Under the pieces are notes generated by a model. The model saw only the letters and a list, made by a program, of their open reading frames with translations, was not told where the DNA came from and searched no databases. Shown in pieces: positions 23,749 to 34,501 of a stretch of 42,479 bases of DNA (position 1 is its first letter; each line of letters begins with the position of its first letter). The position numbers and the translations under genes were made by a program. Source of the stretch: Deltaproteobacteria bacterium (GTDB lineage Bacteria > Desulfobacterota > Anaeroferrophillalia > Anaeroferrophillales > Tharpellaceae); contig JAFGVI010000008.1 in the NCBI GenBank assembly GCA_016938065.1, forward strand, positions 1-42,479. Reading direction: 5' to 3'.

Positions 23749-25155
23749 TTATTGCCCATCACCCTGCACACCCATGCCATGACGTTTCATTTTTTTATAG
23801 AGCAGCGTGCGGTGAATGCCAAGTCGGCGAGCAGCCTGACTTTTATTGCCATGAGAAAGTTCCAGGGCCTGACGAATCGTTTTCTGCTCGGTTAAAGCCA
23901 GCTCCTCCCCTAAAATTCTGCCGGAGCTCTGCAGCCTGCCTGTTCCATATTGCTTTCTGAGATAGAAAGGCAGATCGTCCCGTTCTATAACATCACCTTC
24001 AATCGTGGCCAGAATCTGACCCAGAACATTGTTCATCTCCCGCACATTACCCGGCCAGTCATAGGTGAGCAGGACGTTGGCCGCCTCTGAACTTAAAGAT
24101 ATCTCCGGAGCAAATGAATCCTTAAGCATCTGTTTTAAAAGAGTGCGCGCCAGGAGAATGATATCTTCACGACGCTCCCTGAGCGGCGGAATGACCAGGG
24201 GAATACCTTTGAGCCGATAGTAGAGATCGGCCCGGAACAGGCCTTGCGCCACTTTTTCAGCGAGAATGTTGTTGGTTGCCGCAATCAGACGGAAATCAGA
24301 ACGAACCGGCGCAATCCCACCGACCCTTTCAAACTCTTTCTCTTCCAGAACCCGCAAAAGCTTGGGCTGCATTTCCAGCGGCATATCGCCGATCTCATCC
24401 AGAAAAATTGAGCCCTGATTGGCCAGTTCAAATTTACCCGGCTTACCGGTGGTGCGGGCCCCGGTAAAGGCACCCTTTTCGTAGCCGAAGAGTTCAGCCT
24501 CCAGCAGCTCCCGGGGAATTGAAGCGCAGTTAATCCTGACAAAAGGATGAACCCGGCGGTTACTGGCATGGTGAATGGCCTGCGCAAACATCTCCTTGCC
24601 AGTTCCCGACTCCCCGGTTATCAGAATCGGTAAAGCCGTTGCCGCCGCCTTCAGAGCTTCTTTTTTAAGCCGCTCCATCACCTGACTTTCAGCAATGATA
24701 CTGTCGAAGGTGTAGCGGGTTGAGCGCAGAGAAAAGATCTCCTCCTCATAAAGTTTAACCTTGCTCTCGAGCAGACAGAGCCGATCCGCCAGTTTCTGCA
24801 CATCACTGACATCCTTAAACATCACCTGGCCGAAAACCGCAATTACTTTGCCATCTTTTTTGATGGGAATGCGCTGCACCACCATATCCTGATTTTTCAG
24901 GCGATGCGCCTTATTGATCTCCAGCATGCCGGTTTTGGCAACAATATGCATCCGGGTATTTTCGATAACTTCTGTTGCATGCTTACCGATCTGGGCCGCA
25001 GGATCAATCCCCAGAAAACGACCATAGGGTTTATTGAAAAAGATTATTTTGCCTTCGGCATCCGTCACAATAACCCCGTTGTGAATATTATCAATAATCA
25101 GATGACAAAGTTCCAGAGAAGACTGCAGATCAGCTTTTGCAGATTTTTTTACCAT
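23749..25155 (-). CDS. Sigma-54-dependent activator (PAS, AAA+, Fis HTH)
   Basis: Bacterial enhancer-binding protein of 468 residues. The N-terminus (about 12-120) is a PAS sensor (IIDNIHNGVIVTDAEGKIIFFN). The central AAA+ domain has Walker A GESGTGKE, the sigma-54 contact loop GAFTGA, and the Walker B region IFLDEIGDMP. The C-terminus is a Fis-type helix-turn-helix (SHGNKSQAARRLGIHRTLLYKKM). There is no receiver domain, so the signal is sensed directly or through the PAS ligand. It is transcribed away from the SDR-TRAP-LarA operon, and a sigma-54 promoter with upstream palindrome lies in the gap. It is therefore very probably the operon's activator. A G-rich run precedes the ATG. Confidence 0.95.
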   Translation of the reverse strand: MVKKSAKADLQSSLELCHLIIDNIHNGVIVTDAEGKIIFFNKPYGRFLGIDPAAQIGKHATEVIENTRMHIVAKTGMLEINKAHRLKNQDMVVQRIPIKKDGKVIAVFGQVMFKDVSDVQKLADRLCLLESKVKLYEEEIFSLRSTRYTFDSIIAESQVMERLKKEALKAAATALPILITGESGTGKEMFAQAIHHASNRRVHPFVRINCASIPRELLEAELFGYEKGAFTGARTTGKPGKFELANQGSIFLDEIGDMPLEMQPKLLRVLEEKEFERVGGIAPVRSDFRLIAATNNILAEKVAQGLFRADLYYRLKGIPLVIPPLRERREDIILLARTLLKQMLKDSFAPEISLSSEAANVLLTYDWPGNVREMNNVLGQILATIEGDVIERDDLPFYLRKQYGTGRLQSSGRILGEELALTEQKTIRQALELSHGNKSQAARRLGIHRTLLYKKMKRHGMGVQGDGQ

Positions 25156-25241
25156 CGCCCGCCCCCCTTCCCTTCACACTTTTTCAGCCCGGCTTGAAGC
25201 TCAGAACATCCAGTTCAGCCCTGTAGATATTTTGCTACAAA

Positions 25242-25380: not shown

Positions 25381-25396
25381 TGGCCTGCTTGTTGCA
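25381..25396 (+). promoter_or_regulatory. Sigma-54 (-24/-12) promoter of the SDR-TRAP-LarA operon
   Basis: TGGCCTG-N4-TTGCA. GG and GC stand exactly 10 nt apart, and 10 of the conserved positions of TGGCACG-N4-TTGCW match. Transcription would start near 25408, leaving a leader of about 210 nt. The divergent neighbour encodes a sigma-54 activator. Confidence 0.82.
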
Positions 25397-25617
25397 AATA
25401 TATCCCGCCAACCGCGTACTGATCTTCCCGCGCCAAACCATGAGCCCAGTAAACTACGAGATGAAGATTAAGAACATTTCAACATTTAATCCGGCGATAG
25501 AGAAGCGGCAGCGCGGCCCTCCTCTGAACAAGCCTCACAGCGACGCTTAAAATAAAAAAGGCTGAAGCCAGACCCGCACAAAGCATTAACAACATTTTAA
25601 AACAAGGAAAAACAACT

Positions 25618-26394
25618 ATGCTCAGTAACCGAACAGCAATTATCACCGGAGCCGGCAGCGGTATCGGCAAGGCCATTGCGCAGCACTTCGCCCGGCATGG
25701 GGCCCGGGTCGTGGTCGCCGACCTCGACAAAACCGCAGCCCGGAACAGTGCCGATGAAATCAGGGCGCAAAACGGTATCGCCATGGCCGTGGCCTGTGAC
25801 GTCGCCGATGAAACCAGCGTCACCGAAATGGTTCAGAAAGCCGTCGCAGATTTTACCGCCATTGACATTCTGGTCAATAATGCCGGCCTTCAGTTTATCA
25901 GTAAAATTGAAGAATTTCCCCTCGAAAAATGGAACCAGCTGATTTCCGTAATGCTGACCGGCACTTTTCTCTGCACCAAAGCCTGTGTCCCGCACATGAA
26001 AAAAGCAAAATGGGGACGGATCATCAATATCTCCTCGGCCCACGGCAAAGCCCCTTCACCCTGGAAGTGCGCCTATGTCGCGGCCAAGCACGGCATTATC
26101 GGGTTCACCAAGGTCATGGCCTGCGAACTGGCGGAATGGAACATTACGGCCAACTCGATCTGCCCCGGCTATGTCCTGACTCCGCTGGTTGAAAAACAGA
26201 TCATTGATCTCGCCAAACAACACGGCATCAGCGAAGCAGAGGTTCCGGAACAGGTCCTGTTGAAAAATCAGCCCCTGAAAAAACTGGTTTCAACCGACGA
26301 TCTTGCCGCCCTGGCCCTCTATCTTACCGGCCCGGCGGCCCAATGCATCACGGGTCAGGCCTTAAGCATCGATGGTGGCTGGACTTTTTCTTAA
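25618..26394 (+). CDS. Short-chain dehydrogenase, 3-hydroxybutyrate-dehydrogenase-like
   Basis: NAD(P)-dependent SDR of 258 residues. Seen: the nucleotide-binding TGAGSGIG motif near residue 10, NNAG near 88, catalytic Ser in NISSAHGKAPSP, and YVAAK (Tyr/Lys). The whole stretch from LQFISKIEEFPLEKW through CPGYVLTPLVEKQI and the ending GQALSIDGGW resembles D-3-hydroxybutyrate dehydrogenases, including the long substrate-loop segment with Gln/Lys. AAGGAAAAA precedes the ATG. It is the first gene of the sigma-54 operon, 75 bp before dctP. In this context it may act on a hydroxy acid brought in by the transporter. Alternatives are other beta-hydroxy acid or sugar-alcohol dehydrogenases. Confidence 0.88.
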   Translation: MLSNRTAIITGAGSGIGKAIAQHFARHGARVVVADLDKTAARNSADEIRAQNGIAMAVACDVADETSVTEMVQKAVADFTAIDILVNNAGLQFISKIEEFPLEKWNQLISVMLTGTFLCTKACVPHMKKAKWGRIINISSAHGKAPSPWKCAYVAAKHGIIGFTKVMACELAEWNITANSICPGYVLTPLVEKQIIDLAKQHGISEAEVPEQVLLKNQPLKKLVSTDDLAALALYLTGPAAQCITGQALSIDGGWTFS

Positions 26395-26469
26395 AAAAAT
26401 AAATAAGTTACCACAACGCTTGAAGCATGAGCTTTAAGTGTCTTAACCTGCTTTAAAAAGGAGAGGAAA

Positions 26470-27630
26470 ATGAAAAAGAGTTTATGGTTGTTGGTCGCAA
26501 TTTTTTTTACGTTGTCACTTTTTACCATCTCCAGCAGTGTTGAAGCTGCAAAACGCGAAAAATTCGGCACAGACCCGCGACATCAGGAGGTCAGCCACCT
26601 CAAAGTTGAAACCTCCGGTGAAAAGCCAATTCGCTGGAAAATGGTTATGCCCTGGTCTAAAGGCCTGCTCTTTTTTGACTATGCCCAGCACTTTGCCGAT
26701 TCGGTGCGTCTGGCCTCAGGCGGCCGCCTTGACATCAAATGCTTCTCAGCCGGTGAGCTGGTGCCGGCGATGCAGTGTTTTGATGCTGTGAGCAAGGGTT
26801 CAGCCCAGTGCGGTCACGACTGGCCGGGCTACTGGAAAGGCAAAAATGAAGCCTTTGTCGCCTTTGCTTCGGTCCCGATGGGGCTGGATGCCGAACTTTA
26901 TAACGTCTGGCTCTACGAGCGCGGCGGGGCCGAGATGATGAATGAACTCTACGGGCGCTACAATCTGGTGGCCCTGCCCGGCGGCCAGTGCGGCCAGGAA
27001 ATGGGTCTCTGCTCCAATAAACGGGCCACCAAACTCGAAGATTTCAAAGGCATGAAGGTCCGAACCCCGGGTTGGTTTATGGATATCATGACAAATATGG
27101 GCGCTTCGGTCAGCCCGGTCCCCGGCGGCGAAGTCTATCTCGCCCTCGAACGCGGCGTAATTGACGCCGCCGAATTTTCCGCCCCGGCCGTCAACTACCC
27201 GATGGGTTTTGATGAAATCACCAAATATGTCATCGAACCCGGCGTTCATCAGCCCGGCTGCCAGTTCGGCCTTTTCTTCAACAAGGATGCCTACAACCAG
27301 CTGCCCGCTGATCTGAAGTGGATTGTCGACATCTGCGCCAAAGAGACGCAGCTCTGGAGCTATAACTGGACCACGAATCTCAATATCAAGGCGATCGAGC
27401 TCTTCAAGAAAAAAGTCGAATTCGTCAAAATGGACAAAGATACCATTATCGCCTTCAAAAAAACCACTCAAGCCTATCTCGATTCTTTAAAAGCCAAATA
27501 CCCCGATGTCAAAAAGGTGCTTGATTCACAGGATACCCTGATCAATGATTTCGCCGACTGGCGCGACATCCGTTCCGGCGTCACCCCCTGGCCTTACGAA
27601 ACCTTTATCGGCGGTAAAACCAACGAATAA
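26470..27630 (+). CDS. TRAP transporter substrate-binding protein, DctP family
   Basis: Periplasmic binding protein of a TRAP transporter, 386 residues, with a signal peptide (KKSLWLLVAIFFTLSLF, cleavage near VEA). The segments MGLCSNKRATKLEDFKGMKVRTPG and VPGGEVYLALERGVIDAAEF contain the invariant carboxylate-binding Arg and the family core. The later PGVHQPGCQFGLFFNKDAY resembles TakP and the lactate-binding TTHA0766 more than dicarboxylate-type DctP. A monocarboxylic 2-oxo- or 2-hydroxyacid ligand is therefore likely, which suits the LarA and dehydrogenase genes downstream. AAAGGAGAGG lies before the ATG. A 94-bp hairpin repeat separates it from the permease genes. Confidence 0.93.
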   Translation: MKKSLWLLVAIFFTLSLFTISSSVEAAKREKFGTDPRHQEVSHLKVETSGEKPIRWKMVMPWSKGLLFFDYAQHFADSVRLASGGRLDIKCFSAGELVPAMQCFDAVSKGSAQCGHDWPGYWKGKNEAFVAFASVPMGLDAELYNVWLYERGGAEMMNELYGRYNLVALPGGQCGQEMGLCSNKRATKLEDFKGMKVRTPGWFMDIMTNMGASVSPVPGGEVYLALERGVIDAAEFSAPAVNYPMGFDEITKYVIEPGVHQPGCQFGLFFNKDAYNQLPADLKWIVDICAKETQLWSYNWTTNLNIKAIELFKKKVEFVKMDKDTIIAFKKTTQAYLDSLKAKYPDVKKVLDSQDTLINDFADWRDIRSGVTPWPYETFIGGKTNE

Positions 27631-27669
27631 TCTTTGCCATTATTCGCTATTATTCAATGTAGAAGTTTT

Positions 27670-27763
27670 ACCACAGAAAACACAGAGTGCACAGAGAAAA
27701 GCTCGCATATATACCTCTCTGTGCTCTCTGTGTCCCCTCGAGTGAGCATAGCGAACGAGTGGT
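27670..27763. repeat. Dispersed palindromic repeat, family A, copy 2
   Basis: Same build as the copy at 10232-10315: ACCACAGA...CACAGAG at the left, CTCTGTGCTCTCTGTG in the middle, AGCGAACGAGTGGT at the right. It folds into a long imperfect hairpin in the gap between dctP and dctQ, where it could lower permease expression relative to the binding protein. Confidence 0.78.
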
Positions 27764-27817
27764 ATATATTTTAAGCTGTTTTTAATTGAGTCAATCTTTT
27801 TACTGTCCGGAGATAAC

Positions 27818-28363
27818 ATGAGCAGTTCATTGTGCAGAGGGATTAATCTCATCAACGAAAAAATCGGCCGGCTCGGAGCCCTGCTGATTTTACCGATGGT
27901 TGCCGTTGTCGTCTACGAGGTTATCATGCGTTATCTGTTTAAAGCGGCAACCTCCTGGGGTTTCGAAGCTACGACCTTCATCTACGGCGTCCATTATATT
28001 CTCGGCCTGAGCTATACCCAGCTCCATAACGGCCATGTTTCCATCGATATTTTTGAAGCCCGCCTGGCAACCCGCAAACGGGCCATTCTCGCAGTCATAA
28101 CCAATCTCATCATATTTTTCCCGACCTTTGCCTGCATGACCATCTTTTCCTGGAAATATGCCCTGGACTCCTGCCGCAATCTTGAACATCAATCAACCAG
28201 CTGGGGGCCTCCGACCTACCCCTTCAAAATTCTGATGGCGACAGGCTTTACTCTGCTCTTCCTGCAGATGGTGGCCAAACTGATAGAGGACTGGAAGATG
28301 ATCTCTGAAAATCATGAAACTGAAGTTTCCGGGCCTGGAATTTCCGGGGAGGCACTGCCATGA
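27818..28363 (+). CDS. TRAP transporter small permease, DctQ family
   Basis: Membrane subunit of 181 residues with four predicted transmembrane helices (LGALLILPMVAVVVYEVIM; FIYGVHYILGL; ILAVITNLIIFFPTFACM; LMATGFTLLFLQMVAKLI). The VIMRYLF stretch after helix 1 and the WGPPTYPFK segment before the last helix are typical of the family. CCGGAG stands 7 nt before the ATG. Its stop overlaps the start of the large permease by 4 bp (ATGA). DctQ is required with DctM for sodium-driven uptake of the DctP-bound substrate. Confidence 0.93.
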   Translation: MSSSLCRGINLINEKIGRLGALLILPMVAVVVYEVIMRYLFKAATSWGFEATTFIYGVHYILGLSYTQLHNGHVSIDIFEARLATRKRAILAVITNLIIFFPTFACMTIFSWKYALDSCRNLEHQSTSWGPPTYPFKILMATGFTLLFLQMVAKLIEDWKMISENHETEVSGPGISGEALP

Positions 28364-29700
28364 GTCCGGAAATACTTACTGTTCTGATGTTCGTCACCCT
28401 GATTATCGCAATCGCTCTGGGTCACCCGCTGGCCTATACCCTGGCCGCTGTAGCCGCCCTTTTCGGCCTGATTGATAACAGCTTTAATGTTCCCATGCTC
28501 TTTGACATGTTCGCCAATAACTCCTGGGGACTGATGCAGAACTACGTTATTGTCGCCGTGCCGCTTTTCATTATGATGGCTCAGGTTCTGGACCGTTCAA
28601 AAGTCTCGGAAAAACTTTTCGAATCACTCTACATCGTCCTCGGCGGCTTAAAGGGCGGCCTCGGCCTGGCCGTGGTTGTCGTCAGCACCGTTTTCGCGGC
28701 AACCACCGGTATCATCGGGGCATCAGTCGTCGCCATGGGACTGATGGCCGGTCCCGCCCTGATCAAAAAAGGCTATCAGAAAGAGCTCACTTCCGGTATA
28801 ATCTGCGCCTCCGGCACCTTGGGCATTCTCATTCCGCCGAGTATCATGCTGGTGGTTTACGGCGGGCTGACCGGCTTTAAAGAGACCTCGGTCGGCAATC
28901 TCTTTGCCGGCGCTATTTTACCCGGCATCCTTCTCGCGGCGCTCTATTTTCTCTACATTACCATTCTCTGCCACTTCAAGCCGCAAATTGGACCGCCGAT
29001 TGCCGAAAGCGACCGCACCTGCAGTGCCGCACAGAAGTGGAGCATGACCTTGAAATCACTGGTGCCCCCGTTAGGTTTGATCCTGACCGTCATGGGCACG
29101 ATCCTCTCCGGCATTGCCACCCCGACCGAAGCCGCCGCTCTGGGCGTGGTCGGAGCCATGGCCCTGGCTTTGGCCAACCGCCAGCTCAACTGGAGAGTCC
29201 TCAAGGAGGCCAGTCTCGCCACCTACAAAACCACGGCCATGATCATGATGCTCTTTATCGGCGGTAAATTTTTCAGCACCGTTTTTCTGAGCCTGGGCGG
29301 CGGTGATGTCGTGGCCAATTTTCTCCTCGGCGGGGGCCTCAACCGTTATATGGTTCTGACGATCATGATGGCCATCGTTTTTTTCATGGGCATGTTCATT
29401 GATTGGGCGGCCATTCTTCTGGTAACCGTGCCGATCTTTACCCCGATCGCGATGGAACTCGATTTCAACCCCTTATGGTTTGCAATGCTGATGTGTGTCA
29501 ACCTGCAGACTTCATTTCTGACCCCGCCTTTCGGTTACGCCCTCTTCTATTTCAAAGGGGTCGCCCCGGAAGGCGTAAATATCGGCCATATCTATCGCGG
29601 CATCATTCCTTTTGTTGCCCTGCAACTGCTGGGTCTGGTCTTGTTAGCAATTTTTCCGCAGATCATAACCTGGCTGCCGGACGTACTCTTCAGCCATTAA
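28360..29700 (+). CDS. TRAP transporter large permease, DctM family
   Basis: Twelve-helix transport subunit of 446 residues, normal for DctM. Seen: the N-terminal TLIIAIALGHPLAYTLAAVAA helix, the substrate-path GIIGASVVAMGLMAGPALIKKGY motif, the ASGTLGILIPPSIMLVVYG motif with its helix-breaking Pro pair, GIATPTEAAALG, and LQTSFLTPPFGYALFY near the C-terminus. It overlaps dctQ by 4 bp. The larA start lies 10 bp past the stop with GGAGAAAA between, so one transcript is expected. Confidence 0.96.
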   Translation: MSPEILTVLMFVTLIIAIALGHPLAYTLAAVAALFGLIDNSFNVPMLFDMFANNSWGLMQNYVIVAVPLFIMMAQVLDRSKVSEKLFESLYIVLGGLKGGLGLAVVVVSTVFAATTGIIGASVVAMGLMAGPALIKKGYQKELTSGIICASGTLGILIPPSIMLVVYGGLTGFKETSVGNLFAGAILPGILLAALYFLYITILCHFKPQIGPPIAESDRTCSAAQKWSMTLKSLVPPLGLILTVMGTILSGIATPTEAAALGVVGAMALALANRQLNWRVLKEASLATYKTTAMIMMLFIGGKFFSTVFLSLGGGDVVANFLLGGGLNRYMVLTIMMAIVFFMGMFIDWAAILLVTVPIFTPIAMELDFNPLWFAMLMCVNLQTSFLTPPFGYALFYFKGVAPEGVNIGHIYRGIIPFVALQLLGLVLLAIFPQIITWLPDVLFSH

Positions 29701-29710
29701 GGAGAAAAAA

Positions 29711-31012
29711 ATGGAAGTAACCCTGAGTTACGGCCTTGCCGGTTTGGGCTTTGCAATTCCGGAAAGCCCTGGCTTTCAAGGCGTACTGCGACCCCGTGAA
29801 GCAAAGGTCGTCGATAATCCGGAAGCGGCAATCCTTGAAGCCCTGCACCGGCCGCTTGCCACAAAACCATTAGCCGGGCTTGCTCAGGGGCGCCGGAGCG
29901 CCTGCATTGTCATCAGCGATATCACCCGCCCGGTGCCCAATCAGATCATTCTGCCCCCGTTAGTGGCGGAACTTGAGAAAGCCGGCATTAAAAAAGAGGC
30001 GATCACCATTCTGATCGCCACCGGCATTCATCGCCCTAATGCAGGGAATGAGCTGGTCCGCCTGGTCGGGCCTGAAATCGCCAAAGACTACCGCATCATC
30101 AATCATTTCTCAAAAAGGGCTGAGGATATGATCCTCGTCGGGGAGATCAACGACGGCGTCCCGGCCCTGATCAACCGTCACTATGTCGCAGCCGATCTCA
30201 AAATTCTGACCGGATTTATCGAACCGCATATGTGGGCCGGTTTCTCCGGCGGGCGCAAATCGATTCTCCCCGGCATCTCCTCGATCGAAACCCTTGAATA
30301 TATGCACGGCCCGGAGATGATCGCCCATCCCGGCACGGTTTACGGGGCTCTCGCAGGCAATCCTTTTCATGAGGCCGGTCTGGCCATCATGAAAAAGGCC
30401 GGAGCCGATTTTATTGTCAATGTAACCCTCAACAGCGCCAAAGAGATCACTAAGGTTTTTGCCGGCGACCCGGTTAAGGCCCACCTGGAGGGGTGTCGGT
30501 TTCTCGCCCCATTTTGTACAAAAGCCCTTGACACACCCCTCGATTTCATTGTCACAACCAATTCCGGAGCCCCGCTCGACTGCAACCTCTATCAAACCGT
30601 CAAAGGTATTACCGGAGCCGCACCGGTCGTCAAACCGGGCGGCGAAATCATCATTGCCAGCGCCTGCAGTGAAGGTGCCGGCAGCCCGGAATATATCGAG
30701 ATCCTGAAAATGGTCGACAACCCGAAAAACTTTATCAAGCGACTTTTAAGGCGGGAATTCTTTATTTCCGATCAATGGTGTGCCCAGGAGACCTATCAGG
30801 TGATGCTGGAGCACCCGATTCACCTCTACAGTGAGGGCTTGACCGCCGCCGAAATCGAACGATATCACATGCATCCGGTCAGTTCCATCACCGAAACAAT
30901 TTCAGCACTGCTTCACAAATACGGTCCCCAGGCCCGCTGGGCCGTAGTTCCGGACGGCCCCTTGCTGATCCTTAAACTTTCACATCAAACAGAACCAGGA
31001 GAAGACAGATGA
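29711..31012 (+). CDS. larA: LarA-family nickel-dependent 2-hydroxyacid racemase/epimerase
   Basis: Enzyme of the lactate racemase family, 433 residues, which uses the nickel-pincer nucleotide cofactor. The residues known in Lactobacillus plantarum LarA align one to one: Asp70 and Arg73 (SDITRPVP), His107 (TGIHRPN), His173 and Lys183 (EPHMWAGFSGGRKS, where Lys carries the cofactor) and His199 (YMHGP). All catalytic and metal ligands are therefore present. The family racemises or epimerises various 2-hydroxyacids, so the substrate may be lactate or a relative. Cofactor genes larB, larC and larE are not in the window. Its stop overlaps the FAD dehydrogenase start by 4 bp (ATGA). Confidence 0.92.
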   Translation: MEVTLSYGLAGLGFAIPESPGFQGVLRPREAKVVDNPEAAILEALHRPLATKPLAGLAQGRRSACIVISDITRPVPNQIILPPLVAELEKAGIKKEAITILIATGIHRPNAGNELVRLVGPEIAKDYRIINHFSKRAEDMILVGEINDGVPALINRHYVAADLKILTGFIEPHMWAGFSGGRKSILPGISSIETLEYMHGPEMIAHPGTVYGALAGNPFHEAGLAIMKKAGADFIVNVTLNSAKEITKVFAGDPVKAHLEGCRFLAPFCTKALDTPLDFIVTTNSGAPLDCNLYQTVKGITGAAPVVKPGGEIIIASACSEGAGSPEYIEILKMVDNPKNFIKRLLRREFFISDQWCAQETYQVMLEHPIHLYSEGLTAAEIERYHMHPVSSITETISALLHKYGPQARWAVVPDGPLLILKLSHQTEPGEDR

Positions 31013-32616
31013 GTTCGAGTACCATCCCTTTAAGTAAAGTTTTAAGTGATGCCGAATATCAGGCCATCGACAGTTTCTGCGGCACCCATCCAGGCGTGGC
31101 AAACCTCTTGGAAATTGCCGAATTTCTGCACGATACTTTTGCCTTGACCCTGGTTCTGGACCCCGAAATCATTGCCGGATTCGCCTCCGACAGTTCCAAT
31201 CTTCCAGCCCATGCCGAAGCCCTCTGCCGACCGGAAGACGAACGTCAGGCGGCGATTATTCTGCGGACGGCAAGGGCGGCAAAGATTCCGCTCACCCTCT
31301 CCGGCGGCCGTTCCAATCTGACCGGCAGCGCCACCGCCGAAGGCGGCATAGTCCTCTCGACCATTAAGCTTGATGAGACAAAACTTGTTATCGATCGGGA
31401 AAAACTTCTCGTCACCAGCCCGGTCAACATTATTCTGGAAGAGCTGCGGGAAAAAATTCTCGCCGCAACCGACAAAACCCTCTACTACCCGGTCGACCCC
31501 ACCAGTCGCGGCGACGCCTGGGTCGGAGGCGCCATTGCCTGCAACGCTTCCGGCTTTACTCCGGGAGAGATCGGCGCCACCCGGGACTGGGTTGAAGGCC
31601 TTGACATTCTTCTGCCCGATGGCATGAAAATCAAGGCCCGCCGCGGCCAGTATATCTCTGCTGACGGAGCCTTCACTCTCGACGACGGCACCGGAAAAAA
31701 AATCTGGCCGATACCCACCTACCCCAGACCCGCGATCAAAAATGCCAGCGGACCTTTTTCTGCAGCCGACGGCAGAATTGACCTGATCGACATGTTCATC
31801 GGCAGCGAAGGTCTTTTCGGCCTGGTTACCGGCTGCAGACTAAGACTGAGCCGCCGCCCCAAAGCTTATATTGACCTCTTTTTTTCACTCCCTGATGAAA
31901 AACAGGCCATTGCGTTCTACCACTATCTCAACCGGGAACTCGACGGTAACTTAGGAACCTTAAGTGCTTTTGAATATTTCGGCGTCAACTCCTTAAGCTA
32001 CATGGACCACAAGGAACGTCTCTTTTACGGCGACAATCAGGTAGCCATCTATCTGCAGATACCAACGGACAAAAAAGATCCCGACCAGGAAATCGAAGCC
32101 TGGTTCGATCGTCTTATCAAGGCTGACTGCGGGATTGAACCGGAAGCCGTGCTCCTGCTCGACAACGAACCCAAACGACGCATTTTCATGGAGTCACGCC
32201 ACTCCATGCCGGCCAACGCCCTTGAAGTCATTCAGAAACACGGCACCTACACGATCATGACCGACACCGTCGTCCCGCCTGAGCGTTTTGCCGAATTTCT
32301 TGACTATCTTCACGGTCTGCTCAGGAGTGAAGGGATCGACTATCTCTCTTTCGGTCATTTTGGCGACTGTCATCTCCACTTTACCCTGCTCCCGGAAAAA
32401 GCCAAACTGGAACGGGCCACCGAACTCTACGACCTGTTCATTCACAAAGCGGTCGAACTGGGCGGGGTCTATTCAGGTGAACACGGCACCGGCAAACGCA
32501 AACGCAAGGATTTCATTACCCTTTATAATCAGGCCGCCATCGAACAGCTGAAACAATGCAAAGCCGCCATTGACCCCGATTTTCTGCTTAACCGGGGCAA
32601 TGTCTTTATCCCCTGA
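31009..32616 (+). CDS. FAD-linked 2-hydroxyacid (D-lactate/glycolate-type) dehydrogenase
   Basis: Flavoprotein of 535 residues in the GlcD/D-lactate dehydrogenase family. The FAD-binding PCMH domain spans about residues 75-285, with LSGGRSNLTGSA, PVDPTSRGDAWVGGAIACNASG and the IGSEGLFGLVTG motif. The C-terminal FAD-oxidase cap has SFGHFGDCHLHF (metal-binding His pair) and GVYSGEHGTGKRKRK. It probably oxidises one stereoisomer of a 2-hydroxyacid to the 2-oxoacid. No GlcF-like iron-sulfur partner or electron-transfer flavoprotein genes follow, so the electron acceptor is unknown. It is the last gene of the sigma-54 operon. Confidence 0.92.
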   Translation: MSSSTIPLSKVLSDAEYQAIDSFCGTHPGVANLLEIAEFLHDTFALTLVLDPEIIAGFASDSSNLPAHAEALCRPEDERQAAIILRTARAAKIPLTLSGGRSNLTGSATAEGGIVLSTIKLDETKLVIDREKLLVTSPVNIILEELREKILAATDKTLYYPVDPTSRGDAWVGGAIACNASGFTPGEIGATRDWVEGLDILLPDGMKIKARRGQYISADGAFTLDDGTGKKIWPIPTYPRPAIKNASGPFSAADGRIDLIDMFIGSEGLFGLVTGCRLRLSRRPKAYIDLFFSLPDEKQAIAFYHYLNRELDGNLGTLSAFEYFGVNSLSYMDHKERLFYGDNQVAIYLQIPTDKKDPDQEIEAWFDRLIKADCGIEPEAVLLLDNEPKRRIFMESRHSMPANALEVIQKHGTYTIMTDTVVPPERFAEFLDYLHGLLRSEGIDYLSFGHFGDCHLHFTLLPEKAKLERATELYDLFIHKAVELGGVYSGEHGTGKRKRKDFITLYNQAAIEQLKQCKAAIDPDFLLNRGNVFIP

Positions 32617-32840: not shown

Positions 32841-33629
32841 ATGAATACAACCAGCCCCGCCTGCACCTGTCCGGTTTCCCGGCTGCCGATTCTCGCCAAA
32901 CCTGAATGGAATAAGGTTGAATTCGGCAATGAATATAAAATTTCCGCGGAAATTATCGGCGAGCAGATTCTCGTCACCCATAATTCGGGAACTCCCACTT
33001 TGCACGACATTCAAAATGCGATGAATTTTACGAGTTACATCATTGATAATTTTTTACCCGGCAAACCCTACGTTCACATTTTCGACTACAGCGGCATCAG
33101 ACAGAATGTTTCTCTGGCCAATCGCCGGGTGGTAATCAAAACCCTGGTTCAACGAAAGCAGATGCAGGCGGCGATCTTCTACGGCCTGACCCCGTCGCTG
33201 AAATTGAGCATTCAGATCGGTCGATTTTTCAACCATCTGCCGTTTACCTGCCTGATCACGCAAGACTACGCTGAAGCCCTGGAGAGCGCTATCGCAATCC
33301 TTGCCCACCGGGAGCAGCATTTGCTTCTGCCCGAAGAGCGTAAAGCCCTGGATCAGGAGGAGACCTCAAAACTGTTAGCCGAACTCAGTCAGAATCTGCT
33401 CACGCCTGAGCGTGGCGACTTCGAACCTTTTGAACGGGCGCTTGATCTGATTGAGGATGAGATCAGATATCTGGAAGAGCAGGAGGGAATATCCCGTCAT
33501 CAGGAGACCATGACCCGACTGGGAAAAATTATCAGCAGCAGAAATGAAAAGGCCAGAATCTACCGGAACAGTCTGCGTCCGAACCAGCTCTTTGACAGCC
33601 CGGCTCAATCTCTAAGAGGAGAATCCTGA
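32841..33629 (+). CDS. Stand-alone STAS/SEC14-like sensory domain protein
   Basis: A 262-residue protein of unknown function. Residues about 30-155 (YKISAEIIGEQILVTHNSG, GKPYVHIFDYSGI, RRVVIKTLV, FTCLITQDYAEALESAI) resemble the alpha/beta domain found at the N-terminus of many histidine kinases of Desulfobacterota, recalled from family knowledge. Here no kinase part follows; instead there is a long charged helical tail (EERKALDQEETSKLLAELSQ, then a Glu/Arg-rich segment) that may form a coiled coil. It could be a truncated sensor or a partner of a separate kinase. It ends 2 bp before the aminotransferase gene, which suggests cotranscription. Confidence 0.7.
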   Translation: MNTTSPACTCPVSRLPILAKPEWNKVEFGNEYKISAEIIGEQILVTHNSGTPTLHDIQNAMNFTSYIIDNFLPGKPYVHIFDYSGIRQNVSLANRRVVIKTLVQRKQMQAAIFYGLTPSLKLSIQIGRFFNHLPFTCLITQDYAEALESAIAILAHREQHLLLPEERKALDQEETSKLLAELSQNLLTPERGDFEPFERALDLIEDEIRYLEEQEGISRHQETMTRLGKIISSRNEKARIYRNSLRPNQLFDSPAQSLRGES

Positions 33630-33631
33630 AT

Positions 33632-34501
33632 ATGCGGGAAATCGCTTACATAAACAGTAATTTTATAGACTTGAATAAAGCCGTCGTCCCGATCAACGAC
33701 CGGGGCTACCTCTTTGCAGACGGCATCTATGAAGTGGTGGTCACCCGTAACGGCAGGCCTTTCCTCCTCGCAGAACACCTTGCAAGACTGCAGCGCAGTG
33801 CCGATGCCATTCTCCTGCAACTGCCTCTGACGCCGGCCGAAATTACCGACATCATAGAGCGCGGCCTCAACGAATCCGGTTTTGGCGAAACCCTGGTCTA
33901 CATTCAGATAACCCGAGGGATAGAACCCAGACGCCACAACTACTCCGACAATCTCAAAGCCAACCTGACCATGACTTTTCGGCCGCATCCGGAATATGAT
34001 CCGAACCTGACCAGCAAGGGCGCTGCCATCATCACCGTCCCTGAAATCCGCTGGCAGCGTTGCGACATCAAAAGTATTGCCCTGCTGCCCAATATCATGA
34101 TGAAGCAGAAAGCTGTGGCCTGCAAAGCGCAGGAAGCCCTCTTTGTCAGCAGCAGCGGCCTGATACGGGAAGCCACCGCGGCCAACATCTTTTTTGTCAA
34201 AGATAAAGTTCTTTACACCCCGCCGGCGGATCACCATATTTTAAACGGCATCAGCCGCGCCTACATTATCAGACAGGCTGCCCGGCACGGCGTTGACCTG
34301 ATTGAACGCGAATGCTCCCTGGCGGAAACCCTCGCCGCAGATGAAGTTTTCATCACGAGTTCAACCATAGATCTGCTTCCGGTCAACAGAATAGACGACA
34401 CCACCATTGCCGACGGCCGACCCGGCCCATTAAGCAAAACTGTAAAAACCTGGTTTCCGGTCAGCACGTCCCGAGAAAACCCAGCCATAAGGCATAACTG
34501 A
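33632..34501 (+). CDS. D-amino acid aminotransferase-like, class IV PLP enzyme
   Basis: Fold-type IV PLP aminotransferase, 289 residues. Seen: INDRGYLFADGIYEVV near the N-terminus, the Arg-rich QITRGIEPRRHNY segment, the PLP Lys in CDIKSIALLPNI, the phosphate/ring contact Glu in REATAANIFFV, and ITSSTIDLLPV. The DIKS and PRRH wording is that of D-alanine aminotransferases rather than branched-chain IlvE. It would make D-amino acids such as D-Ala or D-Glu from oxoacids. GAGGAG lies 10 nt before the ATG, overlapping the end of the upstream gene. Its 3' end overlaps the convergent AEC gene by 41 bp, and the last residues (STSRENPAIRHN) are atypical. Confidence 0.87.
   Translation: MREIAYINSNFIDLNKAVVPINDRGYLFADGIYEVVVTRNGRPFLLAEHLARLQRSADAILLQLPLTPAEITDIIERGLNESGFGETLVYIQITRGIEPRRHNYSDNLKANLTMTFRPHPEYDPNLTSKGAAIITVPEIRWQRCDIKSIALLPNIMMKQKAVACKAQEALFVSSSGLIREATAANIFFVKDKVLYTPPADHHILNGISRAYIIRQAARHGVDLIERECSLAETLAADEVFITSSTIDLLPVNRIDDTTIADGRPGPLSKTVKTWFPVSTSRENPAIRHN

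Follow-up and report, generated by a model that had tools for sequence, protein, structure and literature searches.

A candidate sigma-54-controlled operon for uptake, racemisation and oxidation of lactate in an uncultured order of marine sediment bacteria

The closest described counterpart of the system treated here is the lct cluster of Acetobacterium woodii and Anaerobutyricum, which encodes the permease LctE, the D-lactate dehydrogenase LctD (D-iLDH), EtfAB (LctBC) and the racemase LctF (PMC8914356, PMC9232219). Another is the luo operon of Desulfovibrio vulgaris, which has a predicted sigma-54 promoter and has been reported as a target of NtrC-family regulators (PMC4481167). Here we analyse a 42,479-nucleotide stretch of a Tharpellaceae genome (GCA_016938065.1, contig JAFGVI010000008.1, positions 1 to 42,479), called the window below. 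In it, a PAS/AAA+ activator gene is divergent from genes for a short-chain dehydrogenase/reductase (SDR), a TRAP transporter, a LarA-family racemase and a dehydrogenase linked to flavin adenine dinucleotide (FAD). As in lct, a transporter, a FAD_binding_4-type dehydrogenase, probably for D-lactate, and a LarA-family racemase stand in one regulated operon, by which both isomers would be used. Unlike lct, the locus has a TRAP system in place of the lactate permease, a sigma-54 activator in place of a LutR-type regulator, a divergent FAD enzyme without Etf and an added SDR. The A. woodii-type set of racemase, D-lactate dehydrogenase, EtfAB and transporter is thus incomplete in our operon, which lacks EtfAB; all four kinds are found in one related genome (G006). 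With luo the locus shares the broad bacterial group, a predicted sigma-54 promoter and its assignment to lactate, whereas luo encodes one dehydrogenase for D-lactate and another for L-lactate (DVU3027-28, DVU3032-33) as well as a permease, and a racemase is not mentioned in PMC4481167. The parts are of known kinds and their combination looks new; text searches of one open-access library gave no match for a described 3-hydroxybutyrate TRAP system or a lactate operon joining LarA to a TRAP transporter.

We consider it likely that the operon serves sigma-54-controlled lactate utilisation by uptake, racemisation through LarA and oxidation of D-lactate by the FAD enzyme. A previous reading made from the sequence alone (the sequence-only reading) had suggested that, under a sigma-54 activator, a 2-hydroxy acid is imported, racemised and oxidised by a stereospecific enzyme; the comparative evidence favours this scheme and narrows the substrate to lactate. 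The features are as follows.

23749-25155, minus strand: sigma-54 activator with PAS, AAA+ and Fis-type helix-turn-helix (HTH) domains (Pfam PAS; Sigma54_activat, 228 bits; AAA_lid_14; HTH_8)
25222-25239, no strand: inverted repeat TGTAGATATTTTGCTACA (TGTAG-N8-CTACA), proposed activator-binding site, aligned in 8/8 spacers
25381-25395, plus strand: -24/-12 sigma-54 promoter element TGGCCTGCTTGTTGC, a perfect TGGC-N7-TTGC
25618-26394, plus strand: SDR of the D-3-hydroxybutyrate dehydrogenase family (adh_short; TIGR01963, 348 bits, cut-off 307)
26470-27630, plus strand: TRAP solute-binding protein DctP, sister of TakP and lactate-binding TTHA0766 (DctP, 141 bits)
27818-28363, plus strand: TRAP small membrane subunit DctQ (PF04290, 92 bits)
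28360-29700, plus strand: TRAP large membrane subunit DctM (TIGR00786, 329 bits, cut-off 268)
29711-31012, plus strand: LarA-family nickel-pincer 2-hydroxy-acid racemase (Lar_N, 205 bits; LarA_C, 95 bits)
31009-32616, plus strand: FAD-linked D-2-hydroxy-acid (probably D-lactate) dehydrogenase of a divergent subfamily (FAD_binding_4 and FAD-oxidase_C)

The reading frames are open at or near the coordinates first given for them, and their families match the divergent arrangement as originally described. DctQ and DctM overlap by 4 bases, as do LarA and the FAD enzyme, and 10 bases separate DctM from LarA. In the proposed pathway, the activator would sense a signal via its PAS domain, bind the palindrome at 25222-25239 and open the promoter at 25381-25395. 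Lactate would then enter through the TRAP transporter with a co-bound cation, and LarA would interconvert L- and D-lactate by means of a nickel-pincer cofactor that LarB, LarC and a LarE-like protein would supply; their genes lie in other parts of the genome. Finally, the FAD enzyme would convert D-lactate to pyruvate, so that both isomers drain through one enzyme. The sequences themselves show the gene content, the conservation of promoter and palindrome, the gene linkages and the cofactor genes, of which larE is weak; we infer the ligand, the stereospecificity, the direction, the electron acceptor and the inducer of this lactate pathway. For comparison, occurrences were counted in 22 genomes of the same order; the operon's own metagenome-assembled genome (MAG) comprises 2.7 Mb in 141 contigs and is 89% complete. 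Tharpella itself is a taxon described from MAGs (PMC9213671).

The sigma-54 element and an upstream palindrome, the latter without coordinates, had been noted before; the element is conserved, and so is one palindrome upstream of it. The sequence TGGCCTGCTTGTTGC at 25381-25395 fits TGGC-N7-TTGC without mismatch, a result with P ~0.003 in dinucleotide shuffles of the 541-base activator-SDR spacer, and the same spacer carries the element in the other 9/9 same-order genomes examined (no mismatch in six, a single substitution in two and two substitutions in one). The conserved palindrome is TGTAGATATTTTGCTACA at 25222-25239. The -24/-12 element follows 142 bases downstream of it, the usual enhancer distance for sigma-54 activators of this class, and its zero-mismatch matches across the 22 genomes fall nearly all at this position of the activator-SDR spacer. 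We propose it as the activator-binding site. The locus thus combines a -24/-12 element, an activator with AAA+ and HTH domains and an upstream site, and an rpoN gene is present in the MAG; transcription would be expected to start near 25407. Orthologues of the activator hold the same position in relatives. Genomes that lack the TRAP module showed no clear sigma-54 element ahead of LarA, and a scan of the operon's own genome for a palindrome-based regulon gave no convincing further site. A second copy at 27658-27675 has one mismatch and was treated as chance, as a reversed control pattern matches equally often in that genome.

Lactate is named as the substrate mainly because orthologues of the TRAP transporter stand beside lactate-dehydrogenase-type genes. 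A phylum-wide search for the binding protein returned 17 loci in other families (57-73% identical), 14 of which adjoin genes of GlcD-type, GlcF-type or LutC. Eight of the 17 carry an LdhH-cluster gene (cluster representative 1073 bits, cut-off 800), and several also an LldR-like regulator and LrgAB. At two loci (L119, L150) orthologues of the activator (61-62% identical), the TRAP transporter and the FAD enzyme (54-55%) occur together without LarA or SDR, and at a further one (L221) the TRAP transporter adjoins a LarA-like gene. The structural relatives of the binding protein are 4pet, 5cm6, 7ug8, TakP (PDB 2hzk; PMC1839085) and TTHA0766 (PDB 2zzv). The likeness to TakP claimed earlier stands in part. 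The fold family is shared with TakP and TTHA0766, and the carboxylate Arg, the Tyr and one metal Glu of TakP (Arg177, Tyr100, Glu214) are kept as Arg198, Tyr121 and Glu235. By contrast, Gln156 and Glu240 of the TakP metal site are exchanged for Glu177 and Gln261, with the formal charge kept and both residues invariant in nine sequences, and Tyr99, which lines the ligand cavity, is lost to Gly. Much of Thermodesulfobacteriota thereby gains a candidate lactate TRAP family in place of the bare annotation 'TRAP transporter'. A second TRAP set of the same genome (L180, contig C23), with a canonical TakP-like binding protein, adjoins two genes for 2-oxoacid:ferredoxin oxidoreductase-like subunits; keto acids and hydroxy acids therefore seem to be served by different TRAP systems in this genome.

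In accordance with the sequence-only reading, the LarA protein keeps its active-site residues, i.e. Asp70, Arg73, His107, His173, Lys183, His199, Tyr294, Gln295, Lys298 and Trp356. Of these, R73, H107, H173, Y294, Q295, K298 and W356 are substrate contacts in PMC11851776, which describes the closest solved relative, LarAH2 of Isosphaera pallida (PDB 9eia, 9eid); each contact given for that enzyme is kept apart from the variable positions 174, 175 and 357. The residues R73, H107, H173, K183, Q295 and K298, comprising two catalytic His, the carboxylate Arg, the cofactor Lys and the C-terminal Gln/Lys, are invariant in the LarA alignment of relatives. The operon's LarA is the sole copy found in the MAG. 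As for the cofactor genes expected elsewhere in the genome, larB (281 bits, cut-off 175) and larC (LarC1 188 bits, cut-off 90; LarC2 130 bits, cut-off 50) are present, but larE falls short: the LarE-like protein has only 199 amino acids, scores 115 bits, under the cut-off of 150, and its match reaches model position 173 of 259. The LarE-like gene overlaps LarB (L058:8706-10041, contig C79 of the same genome) and may be a short LarE variant.

The racemase and the FAD enzyme are closely linked. Both occur in 15 of the 22 genomes, neither in four and only one in three (Fisher P = 0.009); in all three of the latter the missing neighbour would fall past a contig end. On every contig that shows both genes they are direct neighbours; the one exception is G006, in which they are separated by Etf genes and an additional FAD enzyme. 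The 61 named loci of the FAD subfamily include about ten from Thermodesulfobacteriota with LarA directly upstream, and ten of Lentisphaerae/Kiritimatiellae type with a divergent LarA (33-40% identical) directly downstream, i.e. in reversed order. Two distinct arrangements make a functional link likely. As a class, the association of LarA with dehydrogenases is known, since COG0277 enzymes, the dehydrogenase class of our FAD enzyme, had been found near five groups of LarA homologues; in the sections of that report considered here, the FAD subfamily, the TRAP link and sigma-54 control are not described (PMC7583248).

The best PDB profile match of the FAD enzyme is LctD (7qh2), followed by glycolate oxidase, LDHD and D2HGDH. 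Its metal motifs HFGDCHLH (His/His) and SGEHGTG (Glu-His) are invariant or nearly so in the subfamily alignment. Since it scores 151 bits against the GlcD model TIGR00387, far from the cut-off of 568, we assign it to a divergent subfamily. An Arg-His is shared with LDHD, and Met417 occupies the aligned position where D2HGDH has a Lys, which we take to be a specificity residue. D-2-hydroxyglutarate is therefore disfavoured as a substrate, and the enzyme probably oxidises D-lactate. In this way attention is drawn to a FAD dehydrogenase subfamily, as yet uncharacterised, whose genes accompany LarA. At five Marinimicrobia loci (L128, L130, L131, L133, L134) the subfamily gene is divergent from acyl-CoA dehydrogenase-like and dicarboxylate-type sodium symporter-like genes, which hints at a different substrate there. 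At L122, L126, L127 and L135 (Syntrophaceae-like and related) it is divergent from a gene for a fused CoA-transferase-like protein of ~665 amino acids.

The gene order is conserved in full in G014 and G017, and is consistent across contig breaks in G012, G016, G020, G004 and G006. The activator-SDR-DctP-DctQ-DctM module is intact in ten genomes of the order, and DctM is still joined to LarA in G014, G017, G012, G020 and G006. The last of these has, in order, DctM, LarA, EtfB, EtfA, an LctD-type gene and the FAD enzyme, followed by a GlcD-GlcF-like pair, and its LctD-type protein matches Acetobacterium LctD with 374 bits. A single indivisible operon was rejected, because the TRAP-SDR and LarA-FAD modules separate in relatives: several keep LarA-FAD without the TRAP-SDR-activator module, and in G018 and G001 that module stands apart from LarA-FAD. 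The operon is therefore better described as two joined units. Within it, the 187-base gap between DctP and DctQ holds an imperfect inverted repeat (27640-27740) rich in CACAGAG/CTCTGTG; it may be a mobile repeat of intergenic regions or a hairpin at which the mRNA is processed. Downstream follow a hypothetical protein without Pfam match (32841-33629) and a D-amino-acid-transaminase-like gene (33632-34501) that scores under its model's cut-off; the pair is found again behind the operon in several relatives.

A further correction to the sequence-only reading concerns the SDR. The view of it as an anonymous member of the pathway was rejected. The protein exceeds the cut-off of the 3-hydroxybutyrate dehydrogenase model, its best PDB match is 3v2h, and Q92, S140, H142, K150, Y153 and Q194 align with Gln94, Ser142, His144, Lys152, Tyr155 and Gln196 of the 1wmb enzyme. 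It is thus a D-3-hydroxybutyrate-dehydrogenase homologue with intact residues and no evident place in lactate oxidation; it travels with the TRAP module and probably acts on a 3-hydroxy acid. One may ask whether two functions are joined here, with activator, SDR and TRAP transporter serving uptake and oxidation of (R)-3-hydroxybutyrate, and LarA and the FAD enzyme serving lactate that enters or arises otherwise. SDR and TRAP genes do remain together where LarA is absent from the module (G018, G001), and the G001 module has an acyl-CoA ligase behind it and genes resembling those for acyl-CoA dehydrogenase and thiolase in its vicinity. We nevertheless regard this division as unlikely, because in many genomes the TRAP transporter adjoins lactate-dehydrogenase genes without this SDR, in L119/L150 it adjoins the FAD enzyme, and in L210/L213 the two sets are split, the activator and SDR accompanying an ABC transporter of branched-chain type and the TRAP genes accompanying GlcD-GlcF.

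The same logic might also apply to another short 2-hydroxy acid, such as 2-hydroxybutyrate, 2-hydroxyisovalerate or a mixed pool. The LarA protein is nearest to the broad short-chain racemase of Isosphaera, the cavity-lining Tyr99 of TakP is Gly in the binding protein, and acyl-CoA ligases interrupt the DctM-LarA junction of G004 and G016 and follow the module of G001, which points toward CoA activation of some acid. (The two inserted AMP-binding ligases, L156:505-2190 and L048:10768-12399, are apparently of different types.) Yet close TRAP orthologues accompany lactate-dehydrogenase-type genes including LdhH, G006 joins TRAP-LarA to an LctBCD-like module, and Trp175 of LarA would narrow the pocket, so that we judge such a substrate improbable. 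Less probable still is that LarA-FAD and TRAP-SDR are unrelated units that merely came to lie side by side in this group. Each does occur alone in some relatives, but the ten-base and overlapping gene junctions, the DctM-LarA junction retained in five genomes, and the TRAP genes found again beside the FAD enzyme (L119/L150) and a LarA-like gene (L221) speak against coincidence.

Several observations weigh against lactate utilisation as the function of the whole operon. Lactate leaves the SDR unexplained, and the acyl-CoA ligases are not needed for lactate oxidation. LarA scores 429 bits against the NCBIfam lactate racemase model NF033504, still its best model but just under the cut-off of 460, and we have therefore filed it as a LarA superfamily member, not a proven lactate racemase. 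Its pocket residues Met174, Trp175 and Cys357 are unlike those of Isosphaera LarA (Leu, Met, Gln) and of L. plantarum LarA (Phe, Phe), and the cation site of the binding protein departs from that of TakP. No Etf or GlcF partner for the FAD enzyme is encoded in the operon, and a further, canonical GlcD-GlcF pair is encoded on C32 of the same genome. To these points add the separation of the two modules in relatives, with LarA-FAD lying directly beside RfbC and without the TRAP module in G019, G008 and G009.

Why a lactate oxidiser would racemise is suggested by the enzymes missing from the order. The LUD half of LdhH is absent from 21/22 genomes and was found, split over two matches, in G001 only. 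For the L-lactate dehydrogenase LldD, which depends on flavin mononucleotide (FMN), the operon's own genome gave no match, and the other genomes of the 22 gave short, weak matches, none full-length; no search covered NAD-dependent lactate dehydrogenases, which, like the 89% completeness of the MAG, counts with the points above. Lacking LUD-type and full-length FMN-type enzymes, and with a D-specific FAD enzyme only, these bacteria would need LarA for the use of L-lactate. Tentatively, and with somewhat less than even confidence, we propose that the FAD enzyme founds a distinct, widespread family (Thermodesulfobacteriota, Lentisphaerae/Kiritimatiellae, Marinimicrobia) often paired with LarA, and that Tharpella relatives can oxidise L-lactate only by way of racemisation, which takes over from LUD- and FMN-type L-lactate dehydrogenases and draws on a sigma-54-controlled TRAP transporter dedicated to lactate. 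Racemisation is thereby suggested as a replacement for L-lactate dehydrogenase, and the marine sediment bacteria of this uncultured order, which are related to sulfate reducers, gain a testable energy source, namely lactate of either handedness.

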